A DNA stretch of 64,000 nt from Strigamia acuminata (taxonomy: Eukaryota; Arthropoda; Chilopoda; Geophilomorpha; Linotaeniidae): assembly GCA_949358305.1 (NCBI GenBank), contig OX442324.1, positions 434,001-498,000 on the forward strand, written 5' to 3'. This document shows positions 16,990 through 56,057 of the stretch, piece after piece. The number at the start of each line of letters is the position of its first letter. The first letter of the stretch is position 1. The position numbers and the translations under genes were made by a program. The notes below the pieces were generated by a model. That model was not told where the DNA came from, made no database searches, and was given only the letters and a program-made list of their open reading frames with translations.

Positions 16990-17756
16990 AAAACGAGATA
17001 TTACTTCTTGAATGGAGTTAAAAATGTAGGTACTTACTTGTGACGGGAAAAAAGAGAGCTATGAATAATTAATAAGATAAGAATATAACAATATATTAAG
17101 GGATAGTAAGGGAGGCTACATTGCAACGGTTATTGCAGTAAAGGCGGGAAAAGGATCTTGGAGTGACTGTGAGTCACTCAAGAAGAAAAGGGGGTCACTG
17201 GACAAGTGACCACAAATAGCCTGAGGGCTAGTAAAGGAATAAAACAAGTGAATAAAACTAAATAAATAGGAATGAACTACTTGTATTTATCGCTGTTACA
17301 TTCCCATTCCCACGTTTTTTGTAATTGTCATATTATTGAATATAATTGTTTTAATTTGGAATGTTTGTATAGGTTTATTTCTATGTTTTTGAATAAATCG
17401 GTAAAATGACTCGATTTTATAACTCAATTTTATACAGCACCTCTGAACACATTTTGCATTTCCATTCGAATATTTTTTTTCGTTATTTTATGGCCGTTTG
17501 TAGTGAATTATAGTTTATTAAATTTGAATTTCGAGCTTGTTTTGGAGCTTTTTATTCTGCCGATAGATGGCGACGCAATGAAATAGCTAATTCTAGTTTA
17601 ATTCGAATTTTGTGTAAATGTAAAGTATTAACGTCAATTTACCTGTAAGGATGAAGTAAAAAGGTCAATTTAACCTTAAATTTAAGGAAAATAACGAACA
17701 AATTACTGTAAAAATGATCTTTAAGGCATTTTATACTGCAAATCTAATGTTTTGAC
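16990..17756. other. Non-coding sequence, no gene seen
   Basis: AT-rich DNA with several GTCACT/AGTGAC words near 17160-17215 and scattered imperfect precursors of the 31-bp repeat that follows. No frame or splice pattern could be supported. Confidence 0.4.
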
Positions 17757-18037
17757 TTCATATTTACAGTAAAATTGACGTGTTGACTTCAAATTTACAG
17801 TAAAATCGACGTTTTTAATTTATATTTACAGTAAAATCGACGTTTTTAATTTATATTTACAGTAAAATCGACGTTTTTAATTTATATTTACAGTAAAATC
17901 GACGTTTTTAATTTATATTTACAGTAAAATCGACGTTTTTAATTTATATTTACAGTAAAATCGACGTTTTTAATTTATATTTACAGTAAAATCGACGTTT
18001 TTAATTTATATTTACAGTAAAATCGACGTTTTTACTT
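17757..18037. repeat. 31-bp tandem repeat, about 9 copies
   Basis: The core TTTACAGTAAAATCGACG recurs every 31 bp, with the first and last copies diverged. Flanking sequence on both sides contains degenerate forms, suggesting local expansion from an older array. Confidence 0.95.
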
Positions 18038-18689
18038 CATATTTACGCCAAATTTGACCATTTGCTTTATATTTAAGATAAATTTGACGTTTTTCTCTTA
18101 TTTTTACCGTAAGAGAGTAGTAAAAACATCAATTGTATTTTAAAGTAAAACGTCAAATTGACATCCCTGAGATAAACATGCGCACTTGTAACACGAGATG
18201 CACGGACGAATTTTGATTTTTCATATAAAATCAATTTAAAAAAAAAAAATTTTTGTGTACTACTAATATTAGGCAGTGAAAAGATCACACATACGACTAG
18301 GTTTAGCTCAGAAGTTAATGGATCTAGCATCAAGAGCAATGGTGGAATGTTTTAATGCTAAATACGTGTCGTCAGTTTATTCGTGGGAAATACGGCATCC
18401 ATCTATCATATGAAGATTAGTTATAATAAAAAGTTGTACACAAATAAGAAAAAATAAAGACAAAATATATGATAAAAAAGCTCGAATTTTCCCTCGAATT
18501 TTCCACTCGCCTCGACCTGCGCTAGACATGCACCCACCTGCGCCCCTCGCTTTTATTTTAATTCTTTAACTAAGTTAATTTATTGCAAAACAAATCTTTT
18601 GGGTTTTTTGGGACATTGTATATGTGTACTCTTTCAGATTTTATTGATTTCAGTTAATGTCATTCCTTGTAAGAACACACAACTTGAGT
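18038..18689. other. Non-coding sequence inside the TIR element
   Basis: Decaying copies of the 31-bp repeat run to about 18120, then AT-rich DNA. No gene is supported; an 88-codon minus frame here lacks any motif. Confidence 0.4.
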
Positions 18690-29722: not shown

Positions 29723-32490
29723 ATGTGGATCAATTTTCTGAAACACAAGAGTGAGGTCTTGTCGCGTTTCAAAGTTTGGCAGGCAGAAGTCGAACGGGCG
29801 ACTTCTAGAAAGGTCAAAACAATCCGCACAGATAGGGGGGGGGTGAGTTCATGTCCAATGAGTGGGATAATTATGCCAAATCATGCGGAATCAAATGTGA
29901 AAGGACCAACGCTTATAGCCCCGAGATGAATTCTGTTGCGGAACGCTCCAATCGTACTATCCTAGAGGGGGTGCGAGCTATGGAATTGGAAAATGGGTTC
30001 CCACACTTTTTATGGGCAGAGTTGGCAAATACCATTGTGTATTTAAAAAATAGGTATCCGCACTCGAGTTTACAAGGTCGGACTTCTTATAACGTATTTT
30101 TCGGACGACGAATGTCAGTGCGACATTTGCGCTGCATAGGGTCGAAAGTGTATGTACACATCCCAGCGCAAACTCGGAAAAGCAAACTAGACAGTAGAGC
30201 TTGGGTGGGGGCCCTAATTGGTTATGCAATGACCACATCTGGATACAGAATATGGGACCCACACAGAAACAAAGTTATTGCATCCAAGCATGTAAAAATT
30301 GATGAGAATCAATACTGGTACGAGGGAGCACCAACAGTTTCAAAAGGATTGGGAAATCTAAAAGCTAAGAGGGGGTTTGGGACTGATGATTACATTCATC
30401 TAGTTAGTGAGTCTGAATCGGAAGAGGAGGAAATTCCTCAAAGTCCCCCTGTGTCTACAACACAACAAGCTGTTGAACCTCCCACGCAGCAGATTATTCC
30501 TGCAGCGACGACGGAGTCAGAGGATGGGCAGTCTATGTCTCAAACTGCTCCATTGTTACCCCAATTAGACCCTAATTTACCAGAGGATGTTGCTCACACT
30601 GCAGGAGATGCTACTCCAAGTGAAGGCAGTGACGATGATGCTAGGTACGAAGAGGCAGTGGCACAGTCTCCTAATGTAAGGGGTAGACATACTGGGGCGG
30701 TTGGGGGAATTGAATTACAACAAATTGACATTACAAAATGGAAAAGAGTAGAATACATTAGGAAATCCGGAGCACAAGCCGGACATGTCTTTATTCACTA
30801 CATAACACCGGGTAGAGACCAAATAAGAAGTCGTATAGACGTAGTGAAATGGTGTGAGGACGAGAGTTTCGAGTATGAGGCGGGCCTCTTCGATTTCAAG
30901 ACGAAGACGCAACCTCAATTACCTCTACCATTTGCGGGATTTTGCAATTTAGAGCCAAACACCTATGAGGAGGCCATGGCTGGTGTCAACTACCAAGAGT
31001 GGGGCAAAGCCATGAACGAGGAAATTTCCATGTTCGACGAACGGGAAGTTTACACCGAGGTGGACAGTATTCCTGAGAAAGCCACGTTGCTAGGCAACAA
31101 GTGGATTTACAAAATTAAACGTGACCATACGGGCAAAGTGACGAGGCACCGTGCTAGACTTGTTGCGCAAGGCTTCAAGCAAAAGCCTGGCATAGACTTC
31201 AAAGAAGTTTTCTCACCCGTCGTGAACTTTGTCATGATACTTGTCTTTTTCTGCACATTAGTAGTGCTCAACAATTGGACAGATACGCACATTGATATCA
31301 AAGCTGCGTATCTGTATGGAGACTTGGATGAGCCCCTATTCATGTCGATTCCAAAGGGGTATCAAACCAAGGAGAACCGGGGAAAATTTTGGAAGCTGAA
31401 TAAAGCGTTATACGGCCTCCATCAATCTGGCCGTATGTGGTTTCAGAAACTTCACAAGAAACTTCTCCTGATCGGTTTTGAACCAGTACCTGGTTTAAAT
31501 TGCGTTTATGTGTTGGATCGCAACGCTGTTCTCGTCGTGTACGTCGATGATATTGTTCTGTTTGCCATGGACAAATATGTTGAACGTCAGATTCTGGGTT
31601 GGATCAGTAACGTTTTTGAAATGGTGAATCTCGGTCCCGTACACATGTCGTTAGGGGTCGAATTTGACAGAGGGGGTGGTGAGATTAAAATACACCAGCA
31701 GACGTACATTTCAAAACTTTGTGAGTTGTTCAAGGTTGATGCCAATCATCGGATCCGTGTTCCAGGAACTGTCGGAACGATGATCCAGGGCGCAAGAGAG
31801 AATGATGTTATTGACACGGCCTTCCCATATAGATCACTGGTGGGAAGCCTACTGTTTCTGGCCGCGAGAACAAGACCGGACATCTTGTTCTCAGTTATTG
31901 TCATGTCCCAATACAATGAGGTCCATTCCACGAAGCATGTCGAAATGCTCCTCCAAATCCTAAGGTATTTGAGAAATACTCAAGATCGTTGTATCAATTT
32001 AAGTCGTTGCGATAATCCCAACTTAACAGTGTATACTGATGCGTCCTATGCGACAGACTTGGACAAAAGGAAGAGTTTTGGGGGGCATGTCATCTTCTTG
32101 GGCGGAGTGCCTGTGTCTTGGGCGTGTAACAAGCAAAAGGCTACGAGCTTGTCTATAATGGAGAGCGAATTTGTCGCAATAGTAGACGGTGTTCGTGAAA
32201 TCACGTGGCTTAAGCGATTATATGAGGTGGATGTTATTTCCAGTCTTTTCGGCAACGTTAAGCCGTGTGTCTGCGCCGACAGCACCGCTGCAATACAATA
32301 CGCGAAGAATCGCGTGGAAAATAGGTCGAATAAGCACATCGAAGTAAAGTTCCATTTTCTGCGCGATCTCTACGAAGCTGGCCTGTTTGATATTCATCAT
32401 GTCAGTGGGAAACTGAACATCGCGGATATCTTGACTAAGTGGGTTTCCCGCCTACGTCTTGACGCATTATGCGATCATATATTTGATTGA
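29723..32490 (+). pseudogene. Copia G integrase (part), MBD-like module, reverse transcriptase, RNase H
   Basis: A short first frame (to about 29840) carries an integrase segment ending R-T-D-R-G-G and is thrown out of frame by a run of nine G (29835-29843). The frame 29851-32490 (879 codons) continues with N-S-V-A-E-R-S-N-R (catalytic Glu region), an acidic linker, an MBD-like module (residues about 297-350), reverse transcriptase with Y-V-D-D-I-V-L-F, and RNase H ending H-H-V-S-G-K-L-N-I-A-D-I-L-T-K-W. From 29851 on the frame is intact, which is unusual here. Confidence 0.88.
30739..30900 (+). other. MBD-like module in copia G
   Basis: W-K-R-V-E-Y-I-R-K-S-G-A-Q-A-G-H, then Y-I-T-P-G-R-D-Q-I-R-S-R, ending L-F-D-F. 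It keeps the R-K-S-G and I-R-S-R arginines typical of MBD base contacts, but the Asp of the K-x-D-V-Y motif is replaced (H-V-F-I-H-Y). Confidence 0.7.
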
Positions 32491-33031: not shown

Positions 33032-36000
33032 TTATATGCGATTTTTTGCATATTGAATCGCAGGCATCGAGTCGGCGTAAACACATGGAACTTCCCGGTC
33101 AAACCCATCAATCATTACTTCGGCGTCAAATATGCGCTCCAACCAAATTATCTCCTTCATGCCGTCCACAACCGCCAAGAATTTGCTTTCCATAATGGAA
33201 AGAGCAGTAATGGTCTGCTTATGGCAGTTCCATGAGACGGGGACACCTCCCAAATAGATAATGTGCCCGCCAAAACTTCGGCGGTTGTCTTGATCCAGAG
33301 CGTAAGACGCATCTGTGTAAACAGTTAATTTGTCACTTTGGCAGTTCCCAAGGTTAATGGAGAAATTGGGCGTATTGGCCAGGTAACGCAACACTTGAAG
33401 TAACATGTTTACGTGTCGTGTCGAGTGAATTTCGTTGTATTGAGACAATACAATTACAGAAAACAAGATATCGGGTCTTGTGCGACTTGCGATGAAGAGC
33501 AAACTTCCAACAAGAGACCAATATAGAAAACTCGAATTAACACGTTCTCCCGTTTGGACTTTTTGGATCATAGTGCCAGGCGTTCCAGGCACTCTAACAC
33601 GGTGAGATGGGTCAATGCCGTATTGCTTGCAGAGCTTCGAAATATAGGTGCGTTGATGAATGAGGATATTCCCCCCGTCCCTACAAAACTCAATCCCTAA
33701 TAAAAGGGTGACGGGGCCCAAATTGACAATCTCAAAAGATTGTTGAATCCATTCTAAAACGCACTCTTCTGCCAACTCATCCTTCGAAAATAATACAATA
33801 TCGTCGACGTAAAAGATGAGTATGGCGTCCGAACCCAAGCTATACACACAGTTAAGACCCAAAACCGGTTCAAAACCTATTTCAATCAGCTGGTCGTGTA
33901 GGCGCTGGTACCACATACGACCAGACTGATGATGTCCATAGAGAGATTTCCTCAACTCCCAACATTTGTGTTGCTTTTCAGGTGTTCGATATCCCTTGGG
34001 GATGTTGATGTACTGCACCTCATCGAGGTCTTCATATAGATATGCGGCCTTGATGTCAAGGTGTAAGTCACGCCAGCCCCTTAATACTACAAGAGTACAA
34101 AAGAACATCATGACCAACACAAAATTGACTACAGGGGAAAAGACCTCTGTAAAATCAATACCGAGCTTCTGCTTGAACCCTTGTGCAACAAGACGAGCGC
34201 GATATCTGCTAATCGCACCCGTATGATCCCTTTTGAGTTTATAGATCCATTTTGTCCCCAGCAAGGTTTTATCCTTGACTTTGCTTTTATCAACCTCGAC
34301 ATAAACCTCACGTTCTTTGAAAATATCGATTTCGTCCTCCATTGCCCTTTCCCAATCAGGTTTCCCAACACCTTTCACAGCCTCTTCGTAGGTGTCAGGC
34401 TCTACAGAGCAACAACCAGCAAAACCGACATTGATCTCTTCTTTGAAGTTGAACAATTCCGAGATATACTCGTATCCCTCGTCCCGACACCACCGCACAA
34501 CTTCAACACGACTTCGGATTCTGTCATGCTTAGGCGAAATGTAATAAACATCAACCTTTCCAGCTGTGGCTCCCCCTTTACGCACGGTTTGCCTTCTCTG
34601 CCACTTGGACAAGTCTAATGGCAATAGATCACTAGCTGGAGCTGTGCGATCCCCTGTGTCTTACCCTTTGCGCGGGGGATTACGACGTACAGGTACAGGT
34701 GACGTTCGAGGGGTTAATTGAGGACTTGCATCAGGATCCTTAATCTCAACCTCGTTATCGGGGTAAATATTGAAGAAATTCTCATCATCCCCTTTCGCCC
34801 CACCAATTTCATCAACATTTGCATCTCTAAGGACATCTTGCACTATATCCTCGATGACATCCTCCACGATACCAGCATTCTCAACTTGTTCAGGTGCCTT
34901 TTCGGGCGCAGGTTCCTGAATTGGAGGTGGAGGAACCACTACTTGGGGTAGGGGGTCACCATGAATGCTGTCGTCGTCCGACAAGGAGTCATTGAAAGAA
35001 TCTTCATCTGCATTATCGGCAAAATGTGAGGGGCCCGAGGGAGGAATCTTAAGGTTTTCATACCAAAAGTTCTGTTCCAATATCTTAAAATGTTTCGAAA
35101 AGAACACTTGGCTCCGTTTCGGGTCCCAAATTCGATATCCACGGGTGGAAGCTGCATAACTAATCAATGCCCCCGCCCACGCCCTTTCTTTTAATTTCCC
35201 ACCCCTTGTCTGGGAAGGAATGTGGACATATGTCAATGCCCCAATGCATTTGACATGACGCAAGGACAATTTCTTGTTGTAAAACACATTGTAAGGTGTT
35301 TTTCCTCCCAACCCCATGTGTGGGAATCGATTTTTCAAATAAACAACAGAAACTGCAAGTTCTGCCCACAAAGTTGAGGAAAAATTGTTTTCCAAGAGTA
35401 GGGCACGGATTCCAACAAGAATGGTGCGGCACTTTAACCCAATGCTATCAGTATAAGCACTCCACTGTTTCGATATGAACTCTCCACCATTGTCAGTTTT
35501 AATGGCTTTTACCTTTTTAGAAGTAAGCCGCTCAATTTCCGTCAACCACTTCTTGAAATGACCCAAAACTTCATCCTTTGTCTTCATGATGATAATCCAC
35601 ATCAGCCGGGAGAAATCATCGACCATAATGAGGTAATAAAATGCCCCACCAATGCTCTTAACCGGTGAGGGCCCCCAAACATCTAAGTGAACAATTTCCA
35701 AAATCCCTTTCGTGGATATATTAATAATGGGAGGAAAGCTTGCACGTGTGCTTTTCGCCCTCGAACAAGCATCGCAAGCCGACAATTCATTGTTGGAAAG
35801 TTTCAGCCCAAATACTTCATTGGATTTCTCCAACAATGCAATCCCTTTTGCATTAAGGTGCCCAAAACGTGAATGCCAAACATCCATCGTTTGGGGCTTG
35901 TCAGGCTTAATAAGAGCCTTATTCCCACCATTATCTTTCAAATCGTTCTGCACAATTTGTTTCAAAGTTTTTGGAGTCTTCGATTTATCCCCATTGATGG

Positions 36001-37660
36001 CAATCAAGCCGACCTGTTTGTTGTTCAAAACATTCATCTTCTGACTCGGACTCGCATTATTTGCCACGGTCGCTTGCGCATTACTCGCAGTATTCACTTG
36101 CCCCTTATTCGCAATTGCAGGTTTCCCTGTCTTACTCAAATTTTGGGTTAATGCAGTCTTAAAATCTAAATGAGTTAGTAATGAATTAACAACTTCATCA
36201 CCCTTTAAAGGTGGACTAGGTTTCACTGCCGCATTCTGTTGCGCAGGTAATGCAGCAGCGTTAACAATGTGTGCAGTATTCACTTGACAATTGACTTTAT
36301 ACATTCTATCACTCGTACGTGTCGCAGTGATAGAAGGCGCGTCAATATTGTCCTGAAAAATGGACATTTTTCCATCTTTTACAAATGTCGTGGCCCCAGC
36401 TTCATCTGCGCGACCTAATGAAATCAGATTCTTTCTGAAGTTTGGAGCGTAGAAGACATTTTTCAACTGTAATTCCCGTTTCTTTTGTCCATAAAAAGAT
36501 ATCAATGTCACAGTCCCGATGCCCTCGATTTTCGACTTTCCTTCGCCCTGCTGGACGCTGTAACCAGTTAATGGATTGAAGTCGGAGAACCAGGATTTGT
36601 TGAACGAGAAATGGTCAGTCGCTCCTGTGTCGACATACCATTGCAAATCAAAGTTTGCATGTGACACTAGCGATACAACAGGAGGCTGCTTTTGATTCGA
36701 AATCGCTGCGGAGAAGTAAGAGATAGGGACGTCATCAAAAACATTCATTTGGGTGACGGCGGCCTTTTGCCGGCCTTTTCCACGTGATTTCCCTCGTGGA
36801 TTGCCCCTAAATTGTCCTGTCGGGTTGCCTTTTCCTGCAAGCTGTTGTTTAGGCGGAGAAGGGCAGTCACGGGAAAAATGGCCTGTCCCACCGCAGGTAA
36901 AACACACACGTGGGGAACTGGGCGCGGTTCCGCCGCGTCCACGTTGACCACTGCCTCTGCCAAAGAAGGCTCCAGTGTTTTCCAACGGCGTCGGGTTGGG
37001 CACTCCAAATTCGTCCCCCTTCTCGTAAAGGCGATTGTACTCGCCTAAAAGTCTTTCTTTCACGGCAGCGGCCGTAAATTCCGGGTCGGGTTAGTGATAC
37101 ACTGTCGGTTTGACTGGCTCGAATTGGGGTGGTAATAGATTCAAGTATTGGAAAGCATGGAACTCATCCGAGACCACAATCTTCACGTCGGCGAGTTGTG
37201 TTACTTTCCGGTCGACACGGGAAGTAAAGACGATCATCTCTTCATCTTCCCGTAGACGCATATCGAGGAACTCCCGCCGGAGTCGGGCTTTGCGTGCACG
37301 CGTGGTCGGCTGATAAGCCGCTTTCAGCGCTTCCCATACACCTTTTGCGGTTGGGTGAGCCACAGCCACAACTTGTTGTGGTTCGTTGCAAGCCAGACAA
37401 ATGGTGGAGCGGGCTTTCTCCTCGCCCTTCTCGTAGTCACGAGTTTCCTTTGCCGGCGATCCAGCAAGCGGTTCCTTGATTTTACCGGTCACATGTCCCC
37501 AAACACTGTATGATTGAAGCAAGAGCTGGATCTGCATGCTCCAGGTGGGGTAATTAGAGCCGTCCAGTTTGCGTACGTCCTTATAGTCGTCATGGCGGTC
37601 CCACGACGACATTCTCGAAATAATTTGATCACAAATCGATGCACAATTCACAAAATTCAC
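33032..37660 (-). pseudogene. Copia H gag-pol polyprotein with MBD-like module
   Basis: One frame from ATG 37660 with three in-frame TAA codons: 37091-37093 (in gag), 34658-34660 (before the MBD module) and 33032-33034 (in RNase H). Order: gag (R-K-L-D-G-S-N-Y-P-T-W), knuckle C-F-T-C-G-G-T-G-H-F-S-R-D-C, protease W-Y-V-D-T-G-A-T-D-H-F, integrase (G-H-L and C-D-A-C; K-T-D-N-G-G-E-F), MBD-like module, reverse transcriptase Y-V-D-D-I-V-L-F-S, RNase H. About 18 residues holding the catalytic Glu of integrase are deleted in frame after G-L-K-C. Not functional. Confidence 0.88.
34441..34603 (-). other. MBD-like module in copia H
   Basis: W-Q-R-R-Q-T-V-R-K-G-G-A-T-A-G-K, then V-D-V-Y-Y-I-S-P, I-R-S-R-V-E-V-V-R-W-C, ending L-F-N-F. 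This follows the MBD pattern residue by residue. The equivalents of MeCP2 Arg111, Asp121 and Arg133, which contact methyl-CpG, are all present. It lies between the integrase C-terminal linker and reverse transcriptase. Confidence 0.78.
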
Positions 37661-38614
37661 AAATTTCCGGAGAAAAGCACACAGTCACATCGCACAGAGA
37701 AGCGTAAACCCCCAAAAATTGAAGGCGAGATATAACAAACTTCCCTTGGACAAATCTCATTAAGTGAGACGAAAAACTCCAACGCAGTATTTCCCAAGTT
37801 CCGACCGGGCTCCTAGGCTCGCGGGACACTTGGTGGCCAGAAATAGCCTGCGTGGAAATAGGATTCCGCTACGCGAATGCGTAAAGGGCGGAAAACAAAC
37901 TACAAGACCCCCAAACAAAACCTTAATAATATTAACAAAGAATTTCGACAACTTAAATCTAAAAGATTGCTGGCAGGATGAAATTCCGTTGTTTTGCGGG
38001 TTGGTTTGCGTCGCAAATCTCCCGCGTTGATCCCACGTCATGAAATCGATGCACGTCGACTCAACGTGCTTGTCCGCACCTTCGTAGAATGTGCTTCGTG
38101 CACAAAACCTCGGGAAAAATGCCAGCGCGTATGTTTAACCCGCTAACTGGTCTTCTAGCTGCTCAAATAGCTGATGCCTGCGTGCAAATTTATGCCCACA
38201 CAGGTCTTGGCGTTGGAAATGAATCTTACACGTCGTTTTTCGTCTGGTTTGGCGAAAAATGGCCGTCGTTAAAAATTCGTTTCGCACGAAGACTTCCGTG
38301 TTGATTTTCAACGAAAATGATCCAAAAACAACGTCGCTTTGACGTATTTTCGCGTCGAATCACAATGAGAACGTGTACCGATCCGTATACACGATTCTCG
38401 GCTGGCTTCACGGCTGTACGCGATGAAACCAGAAAGAAAATGGCGCCGCCGAGGAAAAACCTCGTTATATCGACGAAAAATGAACGAAATGTAATGTTCC
38501 TTACACCGTTTTGCTCCAAATTCGCTGGCGAATTGTCCGCACACGTTGTCACGGCTGTCCGCTTCGAAAAATTCCGATTTTCGGCGATACGTCTCGGTGA
38601 CGATCTGCGACGAA
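37661..38614 (-). other. Leader of copia H, part next to gag
   Basis: Non-coding leader that is GC-richer than its surroundings. Short frames on both strands have no motif. It continues on the far side of element D at 44489-44552. Confidence 0.6.
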
Positions 38615-38619
38615 CTTCC

Positions 38620-38935
38620 TGTTGAGATATAACATATAATTACTTTTAAGATATGTATATATTTATATCGCATTATTCAAGCGGTATTATATTCTTTGTA
38701 CGATGTTTGTATTTACTTTTGGCCATGTGAATGGCCACAGTTGTTGTCATGTATAACTTGTATGAATTGCCTACAGGTGGCACCAGGTAGTTTGAGTCAC
38801 ATGACTTAGAAATAAAAACCTCACTTCATGTTTTGCTTTGAACCTGTAAAGACTGTGTTCTTTATTTCTACACAAATGCTTTCCACTCCACTGATAAACT
38901 ACACATTCTGCACTATTTAATAGTACAAATCAACA
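38620..38935 (+). repeat. 5' LTR of copia D
   Basis: TGTTGAGATATAAC to AAATCAACA. It contains an AATAAA-like polyadenylation region (AGAAATAAAAACC) at about 38808. Confidence 0.95.
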
Positions 38936-38947
38936 AGGTTATGGGCC
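38936..38947 (+). other. Primer binding site of copia D (internal tRNA-iMet)
   Basis: AGGTTATGGGCC follows the LTR directly. It complements the anticodon region of initiator tRNA-Met (GGGCCCATAACC), the half-tRNA priming known from Drosophila copia. Confidence 0.88.
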
Positions 38948-39719
38948 AATATAACCAGGAAAGCATTAAAAATCATTTGGGATGATTTTCAACCATTTAG
39001 AGCCAATTGGAGATGTTTTGGAAAATTTCCTCCAATTTATCCAAGATGGCGGCGCCCACAACTGAAGTCAGAAGTTTGTGTTTGTGCCAGGATACTAAAG
39101 GTTTCAAAGCAGCAAAGAGTCATCAAACAACACGGAAACACTAGCGGGTTCGAGAAATTATAAACAATTTATTTAAACAATTCTTTTCCTTTGCTTGGAA
39201 GTGTGATTTCCGTATTGCGAGGCGCAATACGTTTCGTCAACGTGTCATTGATTCCGGACGGGAGAAACGACTAGACGACGTTTACACAAGCGGGATAATT
39301 TCCGTCAACCACACGCGAAGTGTGAACCGGAATTTCTGGACGAAAAAGGACGAAACGGAACTCAAAAACGCGAGACGACACAAGAGTCGAGCAGGAAAGA
39401 CAATATTGGGTTGCAACCACACGTGAAGTGTGACACTACGCGAAATTCCACTGGAAAACGTCTCGAAGACATCTTATTTTGAATATGTTTATTGAATTTG
39501 AGATATTAGAATTGTTTAACATGAACAAATCCTATACTGGTCGATATTTTTGCATTTCTAGCTTAGTGTTGTGATAAGATTGTTACTAACTTAGTTTAAG
39601 AGCGAACTAACATCACAACTTTGCACTTTGTTGTGATTATCAGTACAGAAAGTGTTTTTGCAATTGGTGGTATTTTGTGTACACAGTGCTAGTGAACAAA
39701 AAGGAACTGCCAAACTATC
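38948..39719 (+). other. Leader of copia D
   Basis: Non-coding leader of about 0.77 kb, with AAGATGGCGGCGCC near 39040. No frame of note. Confidence 0.6.
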
Positions 39720-42700
39720 ATGGATACAGAAAAACCGGAGCGGAAAATAACATTACTGAACAGGATGAACTATGATTCGTGGAAACAACAAATCAAAGTG
39801 CTTTTGATGCACCACGGCTGTTGGGCGTTTACTGACGGAACAGAAGAGGCGCTGGCACCGGGAGCATCTTGGCGTGATCGTTCGGATTATCAATTAAGAA
39901 AGGGAAGAGCATTCAGCTTGATTTATTACTCAATTGAAGAACAATACCATGAATTACTAAGCGGGATTGAGGACGCAAAAAAAGCTTGGGACACGCTCAA
40001 AACTAATTTTGAACCGGTCTCGAGAGCACGAATTATTCGCTTGTTGGACGAGTTCTTCAGTCTAAAATATGATCCGACAACGGAAACCATCGGGGTATTC
40101 GCCGCAAAGATGCGTAATGCAGCGAAAAGACTAGCAGACGTGAAACACGACTTGGACAACCTGTATCAAGCATTTCAACTAATCCGATACCTGCCACAAG
40201 AATACCAGTCCATTGTCCAAAGTATTTATCGATGGGATGATAAAGATTTCACGCTGGAGAAGGTTGAAGCAGAATTGGTCGCCGAAGAAGGCAGACTCGC
40301 ACAACAGAGACGAGATTCGGGACAAGGATCAATCATAGACGCGTTCAGCACAGGACCAAATTCTTCTGGAAACAAGGGCACTGATAATTCGTCGAAATTT
40401 CAGCAACAGGGCAACAGTAGCCAAAATAATCGCGGATGTCAAGGCGGACAGAAAGGAAGAGGCAGATCGAATTATCGAGGCGGAGCAAACACGAGGAATT
40501 TCAGAGGAAATGCGACCGGGTCAACGGGACGGGGGCCGTGTTTTCGGTGCAACCAACAAGGACATTGGGCAAAAGATTGCACAGCACAGCTCCAGCCAAC
40601 GAACAATTTAGACACCAACACTGTCGAAGATTTGGACAATGAAATGTTACAAGTGGGATTCCTCACAGAATTAAGCGAGGAAGAGTTGCTGCAGTGCGGC
40701 GCAGCCAACAATTGTTGGATTTATGACACCGGAGCAACTGGACATTTTTGTAAAGATAGGAATCAATTCTCCAGCTTTACTGAAACCACCGGAACTATAA
40801 GCCAAGCAGACAAGAAGAATTTGATCAAAATTCAAGGTGTTGGCAACGTGTGCATCATGTGCGTAGTTGGAAACGACACAATTCCAGTTACACTGAAGAA
40901 AGTTTACTACGCGCCCGACTTGAGAAGGAATTTACTGCCGGGGCCATGCATAGATGAAGCCAGATGCAAGGTCGCAGTTGGTTCGGGATTAGTAAAAGTC
41001 TATGATCCGCAATGGAAAAGGCAGTTAATGGAAGGTGTGAAGAAAGATAGACTTTATTATATCAAAACTAGTGACAAGAAACCCGAAATTGCGAAATTAC
41101 AAGAAAAAGGTGAAAACAGAATCAGTGTCGGTGAACAGGAGAAAGAACACCCAACTAGTTCAAAACATGCGTCAAGCCCAGAAGAAGCGAGATTGTGGCA
41201 CGAGCGGCTTGGACACATTCATTTTCCCAGCGTGCAGCAGATGAGCAAGAGCAACGCTGTGATTGGACTCCCAATTCTGGAAGTGCCAATAACTCAATGC
41301 GATGTCTGTGATTTGGCGAAGAAAAAGTCGGTTTCTCATAAATCTTTGCCAAGAATAAGGTCAAAACAGCCACTAGAACTATTACATATGGACGTGTGTG
41401 GGGCGTTTAACACAGCAACACTATCTGGAAATAGATATTTCCTCACCATAACGGATGATTATTTTCGCTATTCCACCGTCTATTTAATGAAGAAGAAAGA
41501 TGAAGTTTTTGACTTATTCCGCAAGCACGCGAAAAGGATCAAACGACTACTTGGCAGACAGATCCTTGCGATACGAACAGACAATGGCATGGAGTTCTGC
41601 TCCAATAAATTTGGAGAATATCTCGAAGAACAAGGGATTATCCACGAGAGAACCAATGCATACACCCCTGCCCAGAATGGAGTTTCTGAAAGACTGAACC
41701 AAACCTTAGCTAATGGAATGCGAGCACTTGTTTATGATGCGGGTTTGGAACATCGATTTTGGGGTGAGGCGATCTTAACATTCAACTACCTTAGAAACAG
41801 GATTGCGAAGTTAAAATCAGATAAGACGCCGATGGAACTTTATTACAATCGCAAACCATCACTGCGTCATCTAAGAAAATTTGGATGTTTGTGTTTTGTC
41901 AAAAAGAAGATTTGAGATGGCAAAATCGACAACAAAGGGATATACGGGATCATGCTCGGCTATTCTAGAATTACGACAGGATACAGAGTTTGGTTGCCAG
42001 AGTTTTCCAAAGTCTTGGAAACAAATGATATCAAGTTTGTCGAAAGCAGGCGCGGAGTTGAAGGCGTGCTGGGCCTACCAGACAAGTATACGGCGTATAT
42101 TGACGACTTGAATGATAATTTGGACAATGATGATCGTCAGTATTATTCGGATGAAGACGTCAGGCCACCGCTACCCCCGCCAATCCCAGCCAAAAAGAAA
42201 GAAGTTGAACAAGAGGAATTACCTCAACTGAAACTAAAGTTCCGACTGCCGGAGGAAAAACTGCGAGCTAATCCACCTAGGACTGTGCCGCAAGCGACAG
42301 CAGAAGTGCAGAATCCTGCTCGCACCATACCTCCACTAGTTTGGATGAAGACGGAGAAGTTTAGACCAACCGGGCAAAAGGACGTCGAATACACGATTGA
42401 AGGATACGAAAAACCTAAGTTACGCTCAATACCGGAGGTAAAACGTTATTGTGCAGATCATAACCTTAGTGTTCCTGAGCATCTTTTCGAAGATAAGAGA
42501 AGGAAGAAGACATCTGAATCCAATACGACAACAGATGATTTGGATTTGGATTTCAATTTGGAAGCAAATCATCTTGAAATACATATTCCAGTCCGCTATG
42601 AAGAAATAGCAAATCTGCCAGAAAAGAGCGAGTGGAATCAAGCGATGACTGATGAAATCGACACCATGCATGAGCGTGAAGTATGGGAGCTGGTTTCACC

Positions 42701-44149
42701 GCCACCCGACACCAAAGTCATAGGATGCAGATGGATCTACACCGTTAAGCAGAACGACCAAGGGGAAATTGCCAGATACAAAGCCAGACTTGTCGCGCAA
42801 GGCTTTTCGCAAGTCTACGGCGAGAGACATTTTCTCCTGTGGTGGATTTTTCAATCGTCAGATTCATGTTCACATTATTGGTTTGCATGCTTAAATGGTC
42901 ATATATCCAGGCAGTTGTTAAGTGTGCGTATCTCTACGCGAAGTTACACAAGACCATATACATGCGCCAACCGAAGGGATTTATTCATCCAGATAAACCG
43001 AATTAAGTTTGCCGACTCCTTAGAGCAATCTATGGACTGCATCAATCCGGGAGAGAATGGGGCATGGAATTGGAAGAGACTTTACTCAAACTTGGATTGC
43101 AACATGTGAATTGGTGTAATTGTGTCTACAAATACAAGAATGTTGCGTACTTGATCGTTTACATTGACGATATCGTCGTTTTTGGAAAGAAGTATGAAGA
43201 TGCGATGAACGTACTCGACATGATTAAGACTCAATTCGATTTGGTCATTTTGGGACAGACTAAGAAACTGTTAGGAGTTGAATTCTGTTCGCACAGACAA
43301 CAAATGGTGTTGCATCAGAGAGCCTATATCAACAAAGTCTTGCTGAGATTTAAAGACCATTTGGACACAGTGAAGATCAGATCGCAACCCATGACCAAAT
43401 CAACCGTTCTCACCAAGCAAGACTGTCCAAATACGATCGAGGATTTCAAACTTATGGAAGGGATTCCTTACAGAAGCTTGCTTGGATCGCTAGCATTCAT
43501 CGGACCGAGAACTAGGCCCGACATGACTTATGCGATCAATATATTAAGTCAATTCCAGTCGAATCCAGGATGGAGCCACTGGATTGTCTTACTGGACTTA
43601 CTGAGTTATCTCAGGACAACGAAAAATTTTGGACTGATGTTATTCCCAAATAATCGGATCGAAGTTGTTGCCTATAGTGATTCCGATTATGCCAACAATA
43701 GAGATGATCGAATATCCGTTGGAGGAACTCTAATAACGCTAGGAAATACACCTGTGTATTGGAGAACCTTCAAGCAACGTAACGTGACGCTATCAACTAT
43801 GGAGGCCGAATATGTAGCCCTTACGGAGACAGTAAAGGACTACATGTGGATTGTTAGGGTTCTACACGAAATTGTTCTAAACTTGGCCGACAAGTTCTAT
43901 CATCGAGTGTTGTGTGACAACATTTCAACAGTGGATTTTACGAAATCCAATATCGAGAACCGAAAAACGAAACACATAGACATTCGGTACCACTTCATAA
44001 AAGAGCTTGTAAGGAAAGACAACCTTCAAATAGTGCATGTTGGAACAAAATGCAATTACGCGAACATTTTTACAAAATCTGTTGATAAGTGTGATCTTGT
44101 TCAATTCTGTAATCGCTTCCTAGTTGATTTAAATGTCTTAAGTGCTTAA
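39720..44149 (+). pseudogene. Copia D gag-pol polyprotein, broken
   Basis: Starts M-D-T-E-K-P-E-R-K-I-T. Gag; knuckle C-F-R-C-N-Q-Q-G-H-W-A-K-D-C; protease I-Y-D-T-G-A-T-G-H-F; integrase (H-x-x-L-G-H-I-H, C-D-V-C; R-T-D-N-G-M-E-F; N-G-V-S-E-R); diverged MBD-like module; reverse transcriptase Y-I-D-D-I-V-V-F; RNase H ending H-V-G-T-K-C-N-Y-A-N-I-F-T-K. Breaks: in-frame TGA at 41913-41915, a frame-shifting deletion near 42830 in reverse transcriptase, and TAA at 43004-43006. Closely related to copia E. Confidence 0.92.
42342..42510 (+). other. Diverged MBD-like module in copia D
   Basis: W-M-K-T-E-K-F-R-P-T-G-Q-K-D-V-E-Y, then L-R-S-I-P-E-V-K-R-Y-C, then L-F-E-D-K. It has the same spacing of W, R-x-x-G, D, R-S and E-V-x-R-(Y/W)-C as the modules in G and H, but a shorter first loop. 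Confidence 0.5.
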
Positions 44150-44167
44150 TAATGCGAGGGGGCCGAT

Positions 44168-44483
44168 TGTTGAGATATAACATATAATTACTTTTAAGAT
44201 ATGTATATATTTATATCGCATTATTCAAGCGGTATTATATTCTTTGTACGATGTTTGTATTTACTTTTGGCCATGTGAATGGCCACAGTTGTTGTCATGT
44301 ATAACTTGTATGAATTGCCTACAGGTGGCACCAGGTAGTTTGAGTCACATGACTTAGAAATAAAAACCTCACTTCATGTTTTGCTTTGAACCTGTAAAGA
44401 CTGTGTTCTTTATTTCTACACAAATGCTTTCCACTCCACTGATAAACTACACATTCTGCACTATTTAATAGTACAAATCAACA
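44168..44483 (+). repeat. 3' LTR of copia D
   Basis: Reads the same as 38620-38935 throughout. Confidence 0.95.
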
Positions 44484-45634: not shown

Positions 45635-45955
45635 TGTTGATTTGTCATCTAAACTCGAGTTAATTGTGTAGTTTAGCAGTGGTGAGAATAACATTAGTTA
45701 TGAAAGGAAAACACAAACGCCATCTTGTCGTGTCAGAAACTGAAAACAGAATGAACTTCTTTATTCACCTGTCAGGTGATCAACACTTACAAACATCGCC
45801 ACCTTTGGGCGAAACGTACAAATAATACATGGTTAAAGCTGCAGACATTCGTGCAGTTAATACTGAACATTAATAAATACGTATACACTATAAATGACTG
45901 CATAAATTGACGATACGACATAAGATAGATTATAACAATACACCGTAACTTAACA
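45635..45955 (-). repeat. 3' LTR of copia E
   Basis: TGTTGATTTGTCATC to GTAACTTAACA on the plus strand. It differs from the other LTR at a G/A near 45775 and a C/T near 45944. Confidence 0.95.
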
Positions 45956-45973
45956 TTTGGCCCCCTCGTATCA

Positions 45974-48900
45974 TCAATTACTTAGATTACTGAGATTAAC
46001 CAAAAATAGATTACAAAATTGTGTTAAATCGGTTTTATCTACCGACTTTGTGAAGATATCAGCGTAATTTGACTTTGTCTCTACATGTGTTATTTGAAGA
46101 CCATCTCTTTTTACCAGCTCTCGTATAAAATGGTATCTTACGTCGATGTGCTTCGTCTTTCTATTTTCGATATTGGACTTCGTAAAGTCGACGGTAGAGA
46201 TGTTATCGCATAGTACATGGTGATAAAATCTATTTGCTAAGTTAGGCGCGATCTCGTACAATACTCGAACAATCCACATGTAGTCTTTCACTGTCTCCGT
46301 GAGAGCTACATACTCCGCCTCCATAGTCGACAATGTCACATTGCGCTGCTTGAATGTTCTCCAAAAGATGGGCGCATTGCCCAAAGTTATAAGAGTTCCG
46401 CCAACGGAAATTCGATCATCTCGATTGTTGGCGTAGTCTGAGTCACTGTAACCAACGACTTCGACTCGGTTGTTAGGGAATAACATTAGTCCAAAGTCTT
46501 TCGTGGTTCTCAGGTAGCTGAGGAGATCCAGTAATGCAAGCCAGTGATCCCATCCTGGGTTGGATTAAAACTGACTTAAAATGTTGACTGCGTACGTGAT
46601 ATCGGGTCTTGTCCTTGATGCTATGAAGGCCAAAGAACTCAGTAAACTTCTATATGGAATTCGTTCCATGATTTTGAAGTCTTCAATTGTGGTCGGACAC
46701 TGTTGTTTTGTGAGGATAGTTGACTTTACCATTGGTTGTGATTTGATTTTTACTGATTGCAAATGATCGTCGAATCTTAACAGCACTTTGTCGATGTAAG
46801 ATCTTTGATGTAGGATCATTAGCTGTTTGTGTGAGCAAAATTCCACTCCCAACAATTTCTTTGTCCGTCCTAAGATCACGAGGTCGAACTGTGTCTTTAT
46901 CATGTTGAGGACCTCCTTGGCATCCTCATATCGCTTGCCGAAAACAACAATATCGTCGACGTATACGATTAAATACGCGATATCACCGAATTTATATACG
47001 CAGTTACACCAGTTTACGTGTTGTAGGCCAAGTTTCAGCAAAGTTTCTTCGAGTTCTATGCCCCATTCTCTTCCGGATTGATGTAACCCATAAATTGCTC
47101 GAAGTAACTTGCAAACGTAATTTTCTTTTCCATGACAAACGAATCCTTTGGGTTGACGCAGGTAAATCGTTTTATGTAGCTTTGCGTATAAGTAAGCACA
47201 TTTGACGTCAGCCTGGATGTATGACCACTTCAACATGCAAACCAGTAATGTGAACATAAAGCGCACGATTGAAAAATCCACTACAGGTGAGAATGTCTCT
47301 TCATAAGATTCCCCGTAGACCTGAGAAAAACCCTGTGCCACGAGTCTTGCCTTGTATCTTGCAATCTCTCCTTTCTCATCCTGTTTTACGGTGTAAATCC
47401 ATTTGCATCCTATTACTTTTGTGTCGGATGGCGGTGGGACCAACTCCCATACTTCACGTTGGTGCATCGTGTCAATTTCATCGCACATAGCTTGATTCCA
47501 CTCTTCCTTCTCCGGCAAATTCTCTATTTGCTCAAAACGTGCGGGTATGAAAACTTCGAGATGATTTGCTTCGAAATCGAGAGTTAACTCATCCAGATCT
47601 AAATCGAGATCATCCGTCGTAACGTTTGATTCAGTGGGCTTTTTCTTTCTTTTGTCCTCGAAAAGGTGCTCTGGAACACGTAGGTTGTGATCCACACAAT
47701 AACGTTTGACTTCGGGTATCGAACGTAACCTTGGCTTATCATATCCCTCGATTGTATACTCAATGTCTTTTTGTCCAGTTGGCCTCGTTTTTTCGGTCTT
47801 TTTCCAAATAAGTGCAGGTATTGTCGGAACCGGATTCAGAATGTCGATTCCAGGTTGTGGTAAAATACCCTGCAATTTTATTCCCGCTTCAGCTCCTGGT
47901 ATGTTAGGTTTTGGTTTAAGTTTTTCTTCCGGCAATCTGAACTTCAACTTCAGTTGAGGTAATTCTTCTTCCCTTTTCTTCTTAACTGGTTGCGGCGGAG
48001 CCAGCGGTGGTCTCACGTCCTCATCGGAATAATATTGACGATCAGCATCATTGTCTAAGTTGTCGTCCAAATTATCAATATATGTTGTATATTTTTCCGG
48101 TAGGCCCAGCACGCCTTCAACTCCGCGCCTGCTTTCGACAAATTTGACATCACTTGTCTCAATCACTTTTGAAAAGTCCGGCAACCATATTCTATAGCCT
48201 TTGGTGATTCTGGAATAGCCAAGCATAATCCCATGTAATCCCTTGTTGTCGATTTTTCCATCTCTGACCTTTTTCTGCACAAAGCACAAACTCCCAAATT
48301 TTCTTAAATGACGCAATGATGGTTTTCGACCATAATAAAGCTCCATCGGCGTCTTTTCTGAGTTGAGCTTCGCAATTCTATTTCTCAAGTAATTAAAGGT
48401 GAGGATGGCTTCGCCCCAGAATCGGTGCTCCAATTGTGCATCATAAATGAGAGCTCGCATTCCATTGACCAAAGTCTGGTTTAGTCTTTCCGATACGCCG
48501 TTCTGGGCGGGCGTGTATGCATTGGTCCTCTCATGATTGATTCCCTGCTCTTCAAGGTATTCTCCAAATTTGTTAGAGCAGAACTCCATACCGTTGTCTG
48601 TGCGAATAGCGAGAATCGACTTTCCAAGCAGTCGCTCGATCCTCTTCGCATGTTTCCGAAATATGTCGAATACTTCGTCCTTCCTTTTCATTAAATAAAC
48701 GGTGGAGTAGCGGGAATAATCATCTGCTATTGTGAGGAAATATCTATTTCCAGAAAGTGTTTCCGTGTTAAATGCTCCGCACACGTCCATATGAAGTAGT
48801 TCTCGTGGTCCTTTTGATCTAATTCCCGGTATGGACTTGTGAGAAACCGCTTTCTTCTTTGCCATGCTGCAAACATCACATTGCGTAATAGGAACATCCA

Positions 48901-50509
48901 AAAGTGGTAGTCCAATCACAGCTTCGCTCCTACTCATTCCCTGCACACTTGGGAAATGAATGTGTCCCAATCGTTCGTGCCACAATCTTACCTCTTCTGG
49001 ATTTGACTCAGTCTTGCTTGTGTGAGGCAATTGTTGTTCTTTCTGCTCGCCCTTCTGTTCGCCCACATTGGCTTTGTTCAATTCCCTTGCTTTTAGCTTC
49101 TCAAAATCAGGCTTCAGATCGCTGAGCTTGATGTAGTACAGTCTATCTTTCTTGACCCCTTCCATAAGTTGTCTTTTCCATTGTGGGTCGTAGACTTTTA
49201 CCAAACCCGCGCCAACTGCGACTCTGCATCGTGCCTCGTCAATACATGGTCCCGAGAGTAAATTCCTTCGTAGATCAGGCGCATAGTATACTTTCTTCAG
49301 TGTTATGGGGATTGTATCGTTCCCGACCAAACACATAATGCAAACATCCCCAACTCCTTGTATCTGGATTAGGGTTTTCTTGTCGGCCTGACTAATTGTT
49401 CCACTCATTTCTTTGAAATTGTGAAACTGACTTCTGTCCTTGCAGAAGTGTCCAGTTGCTCCCGTATCGTAAATCCAGCAGTTACTGGCTTCACTGCACT
49501 GCAGCATTTCCTGTTTGCCTAACTCGGTGAGAAAACCAACATCCAACATATTCGTATCCAGTTCCTCGACGGTATTCGATTTCATGTTGCTGTTTGGAGC
49601 CAGTTGTAATTGCGCCGTGCACTCTTTGGCCCAATGTCCATGTTGGTTGCAACGGAAACACGGCCCCCGTCCCGTTGATCCGGTGCTGTTTCCTCTGAAA
49701 TTCGTCTTTCTTCCGCCTCGCCAATTTGACTTTCCGCCTTTTTGTTCCGCGTAATTTGCTTTATTGCTCTGGTTACTGTTCTTTTGCTGGGATTTCGATG
49801 AATTGTCGCCATTTTTAGCACTTGTCGAATTCGGTCCTGTGCTAAACGCGTCCACAATGGGTCCTTGGCCTGTGTCTCGCCTTTGTTGCACAAGTCTGCC
49901 CTCCTCGGCGACCAATTCAATTTCAACCTTTTCCAAGGTGAAGTTAATGTCCTCCCACCTATAAATTGTTTGAACAATCGACTGGTATTCTTGCGGAAGA
50001 TATCTTATTAGTTGAAATGCCTGATACAAGTCTTCTAGCTTATATTTCACTTCCGCAAGCTTCTTCGCAGCATTCCTAATTTTTGCAGCGAAAACACCAA
50101 TTGTTTCCGTCGTCGGATCGTATTTCAAACTAAAAAATTCGTCCAGCAAACGTATTATTCTTGCCCTCGAGACTGGTTCAAAGTTCGTTTTCAGCGTATC
50201 CCATGCTTTCTTGGCGTCCTCGATTCCACTGAGCAGCTCGTGGTACTGTTCTTCTATCGAGTAGTAGATCAGACTAAATGCTCGACCTTTTCGCAATTTG
50301 TAGTCTGAGCGGTCACGCCAAGACGCTCCTGGTGCCAACGCCTCCTGAGTTCCGTCTGTAAATCCCCAGCAGCCGTGATGCATGAGGAGAACCTTGATTT
50401 GTTGTTTCCAACTGTCGTAATTCAGTCTGTTGAGCAATGTTATTTTTCTGTCCAATTTGTCCGAATCCATTCTGTTCTTTTGATTTGAACTTGTTGAAAA
50501 ATCACACAC
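45974..50509 (-). pseudogene. Copia E gag-pol polyprotein, one in-frame stop
   Basis: A 1512-codon frame with a single TAA at 46565-46567, between reverse transcriptase and RNase H. Gag; knuckle C-F-R-C-N-Q-H-G-H-W-A-K-E-C; protease I-Y-D-T-G-A-T-G-H-F; integrase with H-x3-H/C-x2-C, R-T-D-N-G-M-E-F and N-G-V-S-E-R; diverged MBD-like module (about residues 901-957); reverse transcriptase F-S-P-V-V-D-F and Y-V-D-D-I-V-V-F; RNase H with Y-S-D-S-D-Y-A. It is the best-preserved copia here. Gag, protease, integrase and reverse transcriptase could still be translated if the stop is the only fault. Confidence 0.93.
47640..47815 (-). other. Diverged MBD-like module in copia E
   Basis: I-W-K-K-T-E-K-T-R-P-T-G-Q-K-D-I-E-Y, then L-R-S-I-P-E-V-K-R-Y-C-V-D, then E-H-L-F-E-D-K. 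Nearly the same as in D, and placed between integrase and reverse transcriptase as in G and H. Confidence 0.5.
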
Positions 50510-51126
50510 TTTGAAATTCCAAAAACACTTTCCTTACTGATAATCGCAACAAAGTGCAGTGTTGCGATGTTAGTACGCTCTTATGAATAAGTTAGTACAA
50601 TACCCTATCACAACACTAAGCTAGCAATGGTATTAAATGGTAATATTCGAAAAATAGCACGAGAATTGTTCATAAATGTGATGTTTTCTCTTCGTAAATT
50701 GTCCGCTCATTTCGCGTCGTTTCAAATCCGTCTTTGTTCACGTCGTTCCTCGAAAATTTCGGTTCACACTTCTCGTGTGGTTGACTGGAACAGTCGCCGT
50801 CGTATTGCATACGATTCTCCGCCGAAATTATCGTCTCGTTGACGACACGTATTGCGCCTCGCAATATGGGAATAAATTTCCCAAAACGAAAAGAAAAAGA
50901 ACGTTTAAATAAATGTTTTATAGTTTCTCGAACCCGTTGTTGTCCTTGTGTGGCTTGATGACTGCTTGCTGTCGCCCAAACTGGAATTTCCTAGCACAAA
51001 CACCGACTGGTTGCTTCTCATATGGGCACCGCCATTTTGGATGAAATGAAAAGAAGACTTTTAGTGACCTCCAAACGGTTGCAATCCTTTCCTAATTGTT
51101 CTAGTTGTTATTCCTACGGTCTTGTA
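50510..51126 (-). other. Leader of copia E
   Basis: Non-coding leader related in parts to that of copia D (for example a GCACCGCCATTTTGGATG block). Confidence 0.6.
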
Positions 51127-51138
51127 GGCCCATAACCT
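51127..51138 (-). other. Primer binding site of copia E (internal tRNA-iMet)
   Basis: The plus strand reads GGCCCATAACCT, the anticodon-arm sequence of initiator tRNA-Met, adjoining the LTR. Same priming mode as copia D. Confidence 0.88.
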
Positions 51139-51459
51139 TGTTGATTTGTCATCTAAACTCGAGTTAATTGTGTAGTTTAGCAGTGGTGAGAATAACATTA
51201 GTTATGAAAGGAAAACACAAACGCCATCTTGTCGTGTCAGAAACTGAAAACAGAATGAACTTCTTTATTCACCTGTCAAGTGATCAACACTTACAAACAT
51301 CGCCACCTTTGGGCGAAACGTACAAATAATACATGGTTAAAGCTGCAGACATTCGTGCAGTTAATACTGAACATTAATAAATACGTATACACTATAAATG
51401 ACTGCATAAATTGACGATACGACATAAGATAGATTATAACAATACACTGTAACTTAACA
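51139..51459 (-). repeat. 5' LTR of copia E
   Basis: Pairs with 45635-45955; the outer edge abuts the ATTCC duplication. Confidence 0.95.
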
Positions 51460-54962: not shown

Positions 54963-56057
54963 AGGCTGCCTAAATTTAAAATAAATTTTGAAGTTTTGTG
55001 TGCCTATGATGAATTCGAGTAGTGTAATTTTGCAGTAAAATTTTTGTGTGTAAAATAAGTTTCGAACAAAATTTATATTTGTGTTTAATATATTTTATTC
55101 TGTTTTAAGCTGTTATAAAGATAATAAATGCAATTCATTTGCATTTCCGATTTTCCGCCGAAGAAATTGTATGTTTTAATAAAACTAATAATTTCCCACC
55201 GCATGGTCAGGCCTAATAATCAAACCACGAGAATTAGAAAATCTTGCCCGAACTTGTTGAAGTTGGTTCCGCCCGGGTAACGTCATTTTGTCGTCGACAA
55301 TCTGACAAAACCATGCGGTTGGGCCTAATTTTGAAAAGTTGACTTTTGACAGAATTCTTAAAGAATTCTATCAATTTAACAGTTGCTTTAATTTTAGAAA
55401 TATTTTTCACATGTATTTTGCTTGAGACTTCAAGTTAAACCTAAATTTATTTGCCTAAATAAATAAGAAAGAAAATTGACATTTTCTCAAGAATTAAAAA
55501 TTTATATTTTATTTCAAAATTGGTTTACCTTATTTTACAAGCTTGACCTACATTAAAATGTTGGTTAAAAATCATGATTTCAAGTCATTGGAATCAAATG
55601 TCACGAATAGAATACCATTCGAATTTAGCGAAGAAAAAATTCTCGCTGTTGTGTTGCCTAGCAGAAAAGCCGTCGATTCAAACGACTCGACGCATCTATT
55701 GAAATTGCGAGTTTTAAAACCTTAAAATTCCATAAAGGTGATCGTTCCTTTACTAATAAAACGGTGATATTTTTTAAAATACTTTGAAAAGTATCCATTT
55801 GTTTGGTGACTACGTCATAACACTGGAATCTGACAAGATTACGGTTCCATGAACTTGGTGATTTCCACCAATCTCGGACGAGATTGGACTCTCGCGAGAC
55901 TAGCGTTGATACTTGACCAATCAGAGAGGTGTATCGAAGTACCCATACTTCCATTCGAACTAGTGTGACCACTGCTTCGTTTGCGATCCTCCTGAACGTT
56001 TGCAACTTCATCGTTATCTCTCAGACTTAGGAAATTTTCTTAGTTTTAAGTTTAGTT
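54963..56057 (+). other. Leader of element C
   Basis: AT-rich non-coding leader. ACCGCATGGT (about 55198) and ACCATGCGGT (about 55311) form an inverted pair about 100 bp apart, each followed by an (A)GGCCTAAT word, which could fold the RNA. Confidence 0.6.

Follow-up and report, generated by a model that had tools for sequence, protein, structure and literature searches.

Chromoviruses and other elements carry a chromatin-reading module on their integrase, which is thought to steer insertion. A Copia family with a host-derived methyl-CpG-binding domain (MBD) that binds CpG-dense methylated DNA has reportedly been found in the centipede Strigamia maritima and in a spider, and its insertions are said to be biased by the MBD. 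The title of the 2019 study of this family (de Mendoza, Pflueger and Lister 2019, Genome Res 29:1277) speaks of an MBD captured by a functionally active arthropod retrotransposon family. Passages in later papers that cite it mention a recent transposable element (TE) family that gains high methylation in S. maritima (PMC7343188) and copia elements of other arthropods, preferentially methylated and accumulating where CpG is dense (PMC11721087), and the study is also listed among TEs that co-opted host chromatin regulators (PMC11244446). A retroelement that reads DNA methylation would pick its sites by an epigenetic mark, a principle that is already published, and the 2019 study contradicts the belief in the original prediction for the locus described here, made without a search, that no copia lineage with an MBD had been described. 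The likeness to chromoviruses lies in a chromatin-reading module within Pol; theirs is a histone-mark reader in Ty3/gypsy elements, whereas the module considered here is a putative DNA-methylation reader in Ty1/copia elements. S. acuminata is a second Strigamia species whose assembly reaches chromosome level; it offers numerous near-identical copies as well as sister families that diverge at putative methyl-reading residues, so that the effect of domain chemistry on insertion pattern could be tested within one genome.

The window, that is, the whole stretch of S. acuminata DNA analysed here, is 64,000 nucleotides long (C12:434001-498000). Element H lies on its minus strand, in a frame broken into three pieces by two in-frame stops. 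The first piece encodes copia gag (37091..37684; Retrotran_gag_2 E 5.6e-22) and ends at an in-frame stop. The second, in the same frame, holds a zinc knuckle, the Pol beta-barrel, gag-pre-integrase, the integrase core and an SH3-like domain (34661..37090), and a further in-frame stop separates it from the third (33032..34660), which contains the MBD, RVT_2 (E 7.5e-51) and an RNase H that lacks its end. This incompleteness together with the two stops marks H as a decayed copy. The order gag, protease, integrase, reverse transcriptase (RT) and RNase H, with an RVT_2 match, is that of a Ty1/copia element, and the Pfam domain order bears out the prediction that the module sits between integrase and RT of Ty1/copia polyproteins. 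No LTR pair of at least 60 nt was found for H or G within positions 28000-52500 of the window.

The MBD of H (34445..34603, minus strand) matches Pfam PF01429 with 38.5 bits (E 9.1e-10; gathering cut-off 21 bits), and a PDB sequence search with the segment returned MBD1 (1d9n) as top match with an E value of 2.1e-10, followed by chains of MBD2, MeCP2, MBD6, MBD4 and MBD3. The residues at MeCP2 positions 111, 121, 123, 133, 134 and 137 are R, D, Y, R, S and E in H, a canonical set of contact residues in which the predicted equivalents of Arg111, Asp121 and Arg133 are all present. In an AlphaFold2 model of the H frame the MBD part forms strands at residues 21-26 and 36-41 and a helix at 51-61, within a block of pLDDT 80-89 across residues 11-70, and this modelled secondary structure fits the MBD fold. 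Fold searches with the models of H and of a further element, F, in which queries of more than 540 residues barely probed the MBD, gave RT chains only and no MBD row, an outcome that does not count against the fold.

Element G (29836..32490, plus strand) is 5' truncated, beginning inside integrase, and comprises the integrase end, an SH3-like domain, the MBD, RVT_2 and RNase H. Its MBD (30739..30897, plus strand), which had been predicted as the counterpart of that in H, also passes the 21-bit cut-off in the Pfam MBD search that the original prediction had proposed for both elements (27.2 bits, E 3e-6). It keeps R111 and R133, whereas positions 121, 123 and 137 are occupied by F, H and D, respectively; thus the Asp121 equivalent is present in H and missing from G. 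Between G and H the dN/dS ratio is 0.26 (54 codons). The MBD of G lies about 140 residues past the integrase SH3-like domain and about 45 ahead of RVT_2, so either the integrase product, as the original prediction proposed, or the RT product could carry it.

Two further copia elements in the window bear more distant versions of the domain. Element E (38620..44467, plus strand) and element F (45635..51438, minus strand) each have direct repeats of at least 300 nt at both ends that are 100% identical; the pol frame of E is broken and that of F contains one in-frame stop. Their diverged, short-loop MBD-like segments (E, 42342..42497, plus strand; F, 47651..47806, minus strand) gave no MBD match to Pfam PF01429 at the gathering cut-off and were matched by a profile built from 14 copia MBDs, to which neither contributed, with i-E values of 2.4e-7 and 5.7e-7, respectively. 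The model of F has pLDDT 73-78 over the segment. E, F and three further copies of this type have E at position 123 and a shorter loop after R111, and R111, D121 and R133 are retained in E/F. In hhalign profile comparisons the E/F group matched canonical copia MBDs at 96% (E 3e-9) and cellular MBDs at only 5% (E 0.007). A second group, resembling the relative P0002 and likewise without a Pfam call, scored 94% against canonical copia MBDs and 3% against cellular ones. Given the missing Pfam call and the scant cellular match, the MBD origin of the E/F and P0002-like segments rests on retroelement intermediates. The canonical copia MBDs themselves matched a small profile of cellular MBDs at 99.3% (E 3.9e-20).

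Relatives were sought, as the original prediction had suggested, with the G frame as protein query; 373 came up, and the best 120 of them were listed. At i-E <1e-3 the copia-MBD profile found the domain in 15 of 43 proteins longer than 800 aa, and the best i-E among shuffled controls was 4. Six of the 15 (P0001, P0012, P0013, P0015, P0017 and G) are profile members and match by construction; the other nine lie outside it (P0002, P0005, P0007, P0022, P0026, P0027, P0029, P0036 and F). The remaining 28 of the 43 lack the domain at this threshold, including the plant-named P0102, P0104, P0105 and P0106 and the weak P0003, P0010 and P0011. In an RT tree of 59 rows, built by a quick method with SH-aLRT values only and rooted on one plant row (L001 and L003 occupy less than a quarter of its columns), 41 rows group in a single clade (support 100). 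The MBD is carried by 25 of these 41, 20 by copia profile match or membership and five genome loci by PF01429; four are weak (P0003, 0.0015; P0090, 0.044; P0010, 0.078; P0011, 0.53), and the other 12, fragments of 490-574 aa, have no match. None of the 18 rows outside the clade reaches 1e-3, and the spider relative P0022 (Trichonephila clavipes) falls inside it. Since all MBD-bearing rows lie within one RT clade, the tree suggests, as the simplest reading, a single MBD capture in the ancestor of that clade.

The S. acuminata genome (237,517,015 bases on 157 contigs) holds many longer copies. Among the 120 hits listed for its COX1, the nearest is that of the geophilomorph centipede Mecistocephalus marmoratus, with 86% identity. 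A PF01429 search scored 150 matches among 1,092 first-look candidates, so that the counts are lower bounds, and for 119 of the 150 the frame is 1500 aa or longer. One match is a BAZ2-like gene; among the other 149, the 34 that were inspected were all copia-like and the remainder were judged by score and frame length. Of four copies checked for LTRs, three are elements some 7 kb long with LTR pairs of 466-479 nt at 99.6-100% identity; the fourth is arranged in tandem and has a repeat of 2,087 nt at 99.9% identity. These near-identical LTRs and the identical repeat ends of E and F point to recent insertion of the MBD copia families. Some MBD copia matches occur as same-orientation pairs spaced by about 6.26 kb, which suggests head-to-tail elements with a common LTR.

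The contact residues of these relatives differ by family. R111 is R in 31 of the 32 rows of our residue table, with K in P0022, an incomplete row. D121 and R133 are both missing from P0002-P0005, P0010 and P0011, and D121 from P0007. Tyr123 is retained in the genome loci L001, L003, L004 and L006. Six sampled copies of the numerous families, which include the four checked for LTRs, all retain R111, D121 and R133 and have V (four copies), I (one) or W (one) at position 123. Over 54 codons dN/dS was 0.04 for L003/L004, 0.08 for L007/L008, 0.00 for L017/L008 and 0.09 for L013/L005, and these within-family ratios indicate purifying selection, which is strong in the V and I families; in six of 11 pairs, including E vs F, synonymous sites were saturated and gave no ratio. 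The repeated replacement of presumed methyl-reading residues across families rich in recent copies may be new. We tentatively entertain that one copia clade took a methyl-CpG reader once and re-tooled it several times, into the V/I/W, E/F and D121-less types, a possibility to which we give somewhat less than even weight. The third of these clades would have lost D121 and mostly R133. Given the strong purifying selection on the V and I types, the domain would on this account have acquired a new target, be it unmethylated CpG, DNA of any sequence or some protein.

The copia MBD belongs to the same domain family as the cellular domains of MBD1, MBD2/3 and MeCP2 and that of the host MBD2/3. Judged by eye, the host has one MBD2/3 gene (L049, on contig C5), with an intron inside its MBD, and one BAZ2-like gene; the copia MBD, in contrast to that of the host MBD2/3, is intronless within a Pol polyprotein. 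At the MeCP2 Tyr123 position the host MBD2/3 has F, and at 137 it has Q. A similar Phe occupies the Tyr123 position in mammalian MBD3, where the matching Tyr-to-Phe change lowers methyl selectivity. As for the methylation machinery, we recognised by eye four DNMT1-like loci and one DNMT2-like locus in S. acuminata, and no DNMT3 among 11 DNA methylase search matches. S. maritima has four Dnmt1 and one Dnmt3 according to a passage in PMC4244043, and the absence of DNMT3 from S. acuminata is accordingly not firm. In S. maritima a fraction of 0.758 of 719 annotated TEs falls in the highly methylated group, as given in an excerpt of PMC7343188.

H and G look like decayed members of the MBD-bearing arthropod Copia kind. 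They are arthropod Copia elements with an MBD in Pol, as the kind is defined by the title of the 2019 study and the passages citing it, and that kind is reported from S. maritima, a congener of S. acuminata. The likeness is one of description, and there are differences: S. acuminata is a new host, both H and G have decayed, the sampled copies carry another residue in place of Tyr123, and E/F are diverged.

We favour, with moderate confidence, the explanation that H and G are decayed copies of this known kind and that the domain most likely tethers the integration complex to methylated, CpG-dense chromatin. An ancestral copia element would have acquired a cellular methyl-CpG-binding domain between integrase and RT, its descendants would have retained it, and the domain would hold the integration complex at methylated chromatin dense in CpG, which would bring new copies to such sites. 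Methyl-CpG binding, travel with the integrase and steering of integration are the parts of this mechanism that we infer. It is supported by the identity and position of the MBD, the match of canonical copia MBDs to cellular ones, the canonical contact set in H, low dN/dS in within-family pairs, recent relatives in the same genome with long frames and near-identical LTRs, the single RT clade and the DNMT1-like genes of the host, and also by the mostly methylated TEs of S. maritima and canonical flanks that are CpG-richer than host gene regions.

The flank data cut both ways. CpG density was 6.74 per 100 bp in the flanks of 20 canonical copies, a small, one-sided sample taken from the 3' side of plus-strand copies of several families and placed by one family's offset, and 5.31 in the flanks of 20 E/F copies, positioned by F's offset (p 0.30 vs canonical). 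As controls we used tiles from six host gene regions and from the window's first 22 kb instead of random points; host gene regions had 4.04 CpG per 100 bp (114 tiles; p 0.006 vs canonical and 0.01 vs E/F flanks) and the first 22 kb 3.95 (44 tiles; p 0.008 vs canonical flanks). Observed/expected (o/e) CpG was 1.30 in canonical flanks, 1.04 in E/F flanks, 1.36 in genes and 1.28 in the first 22 kb, with no difference between canonical flanks and genes (p 0.30) and a lower value in E/F flanks than in genes (p 0.0005). Canonical and E/F flanks are both GC-richer and CpG-denser than genes, and nothing in the comparison of 20 canonical with 20 E/F copies sets the canonical class apart, as MBD-specific insertion targeting would. 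The steering of insertion to methylated DNA that the original prediction proposed is plausible, but this comparison of canonical with E/F flanks gave no MBD-specific signal. Against the favoured explanation stand the similarity of E/F to canonical flanks, canonical o/e values like those of genes, flanks that are GC-richer throughout, an X/Y enrichment common to a gypsy element (see below) and the loss of Tyr123 in the sampled copies of the numerous families.

The similarity in flank CpG density also favours an alternative in which, in the families with many recent copies, the MBD is a DNA or CpG tether no longer dependent on methylation that anchors the complex at CpG-dense or open DNA. We regard this as rather unlikely, though it is the strongest competitor: V, I or W replaces Tyr123 in all six sampled copies and E does so in E/F, purifying selection on the V and I families is strong, and in mammalian MBD3 the matching Tyr-to-Phe change makes the domain less selective for methylation, whereas neither the six copies nor E/F have lost R111, D121 or R133, and the 2019 title calls the arthropod family functionally active. 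Less probable still is a role for the MBD in a different step without any steering of insertion, for instance in holding particles or DNA of the element to host chromatin or in binding a protein. A site between integrase and RT fits either product, and the flank comparison gave no targeting signal specific to the canonical domain, yet the contact residues kept in H and its relatives point to DNA. Chance resemblance in an integrase-RT linker, to which the poor structure of the linker flanking the MBD in the H model (pLDDT <50 at residues 1-9 and 76-84) might lend itself, is refuted by the Pfam matches above cut-off, the PDB MBD matches, the shuffled controls and the low dN/dS, and we consider it vanishingly improbable.

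We also considered the chromosomal distribution. The window lies on the putative X chromosome (C12), with C13 as the putative Y; the available description of assembly qcStrAcum1.1 gives 9.63 Mb for X and 10.34 Mb for Y (PMC10556566). Together X and Y carry 23 of the 150 scored PF01429 matches, at densities of 1.14 and 1.16 per Mb, respectively, vs a genome average of 0.63. They also carry 21 of 40 E/F matches (best 40 of 281 candidates) and 21 of 40 matches of a gypsy element from the window (best 40 of 352 candidates), both counted by eye and including the window's own copy; these two DNA lists are biased, being limited to the best 40 and based on queries from X. As the gypsy element is equally enriched, we rejected the X/Y enrichment as a sign of MBD-specific targeting. 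On other contigs, all 12 PF01429 matches of C6 lie within its last 2.7 Mb and 20 of the 37 on C1 lie beyond 60 Mb. Within the window, long frames at 56031-62461 resemble, by eye, gypsy-type gag, reverse transcriptase and integrase, and a tandem array with a 31-bp period occupies 17672-18105.
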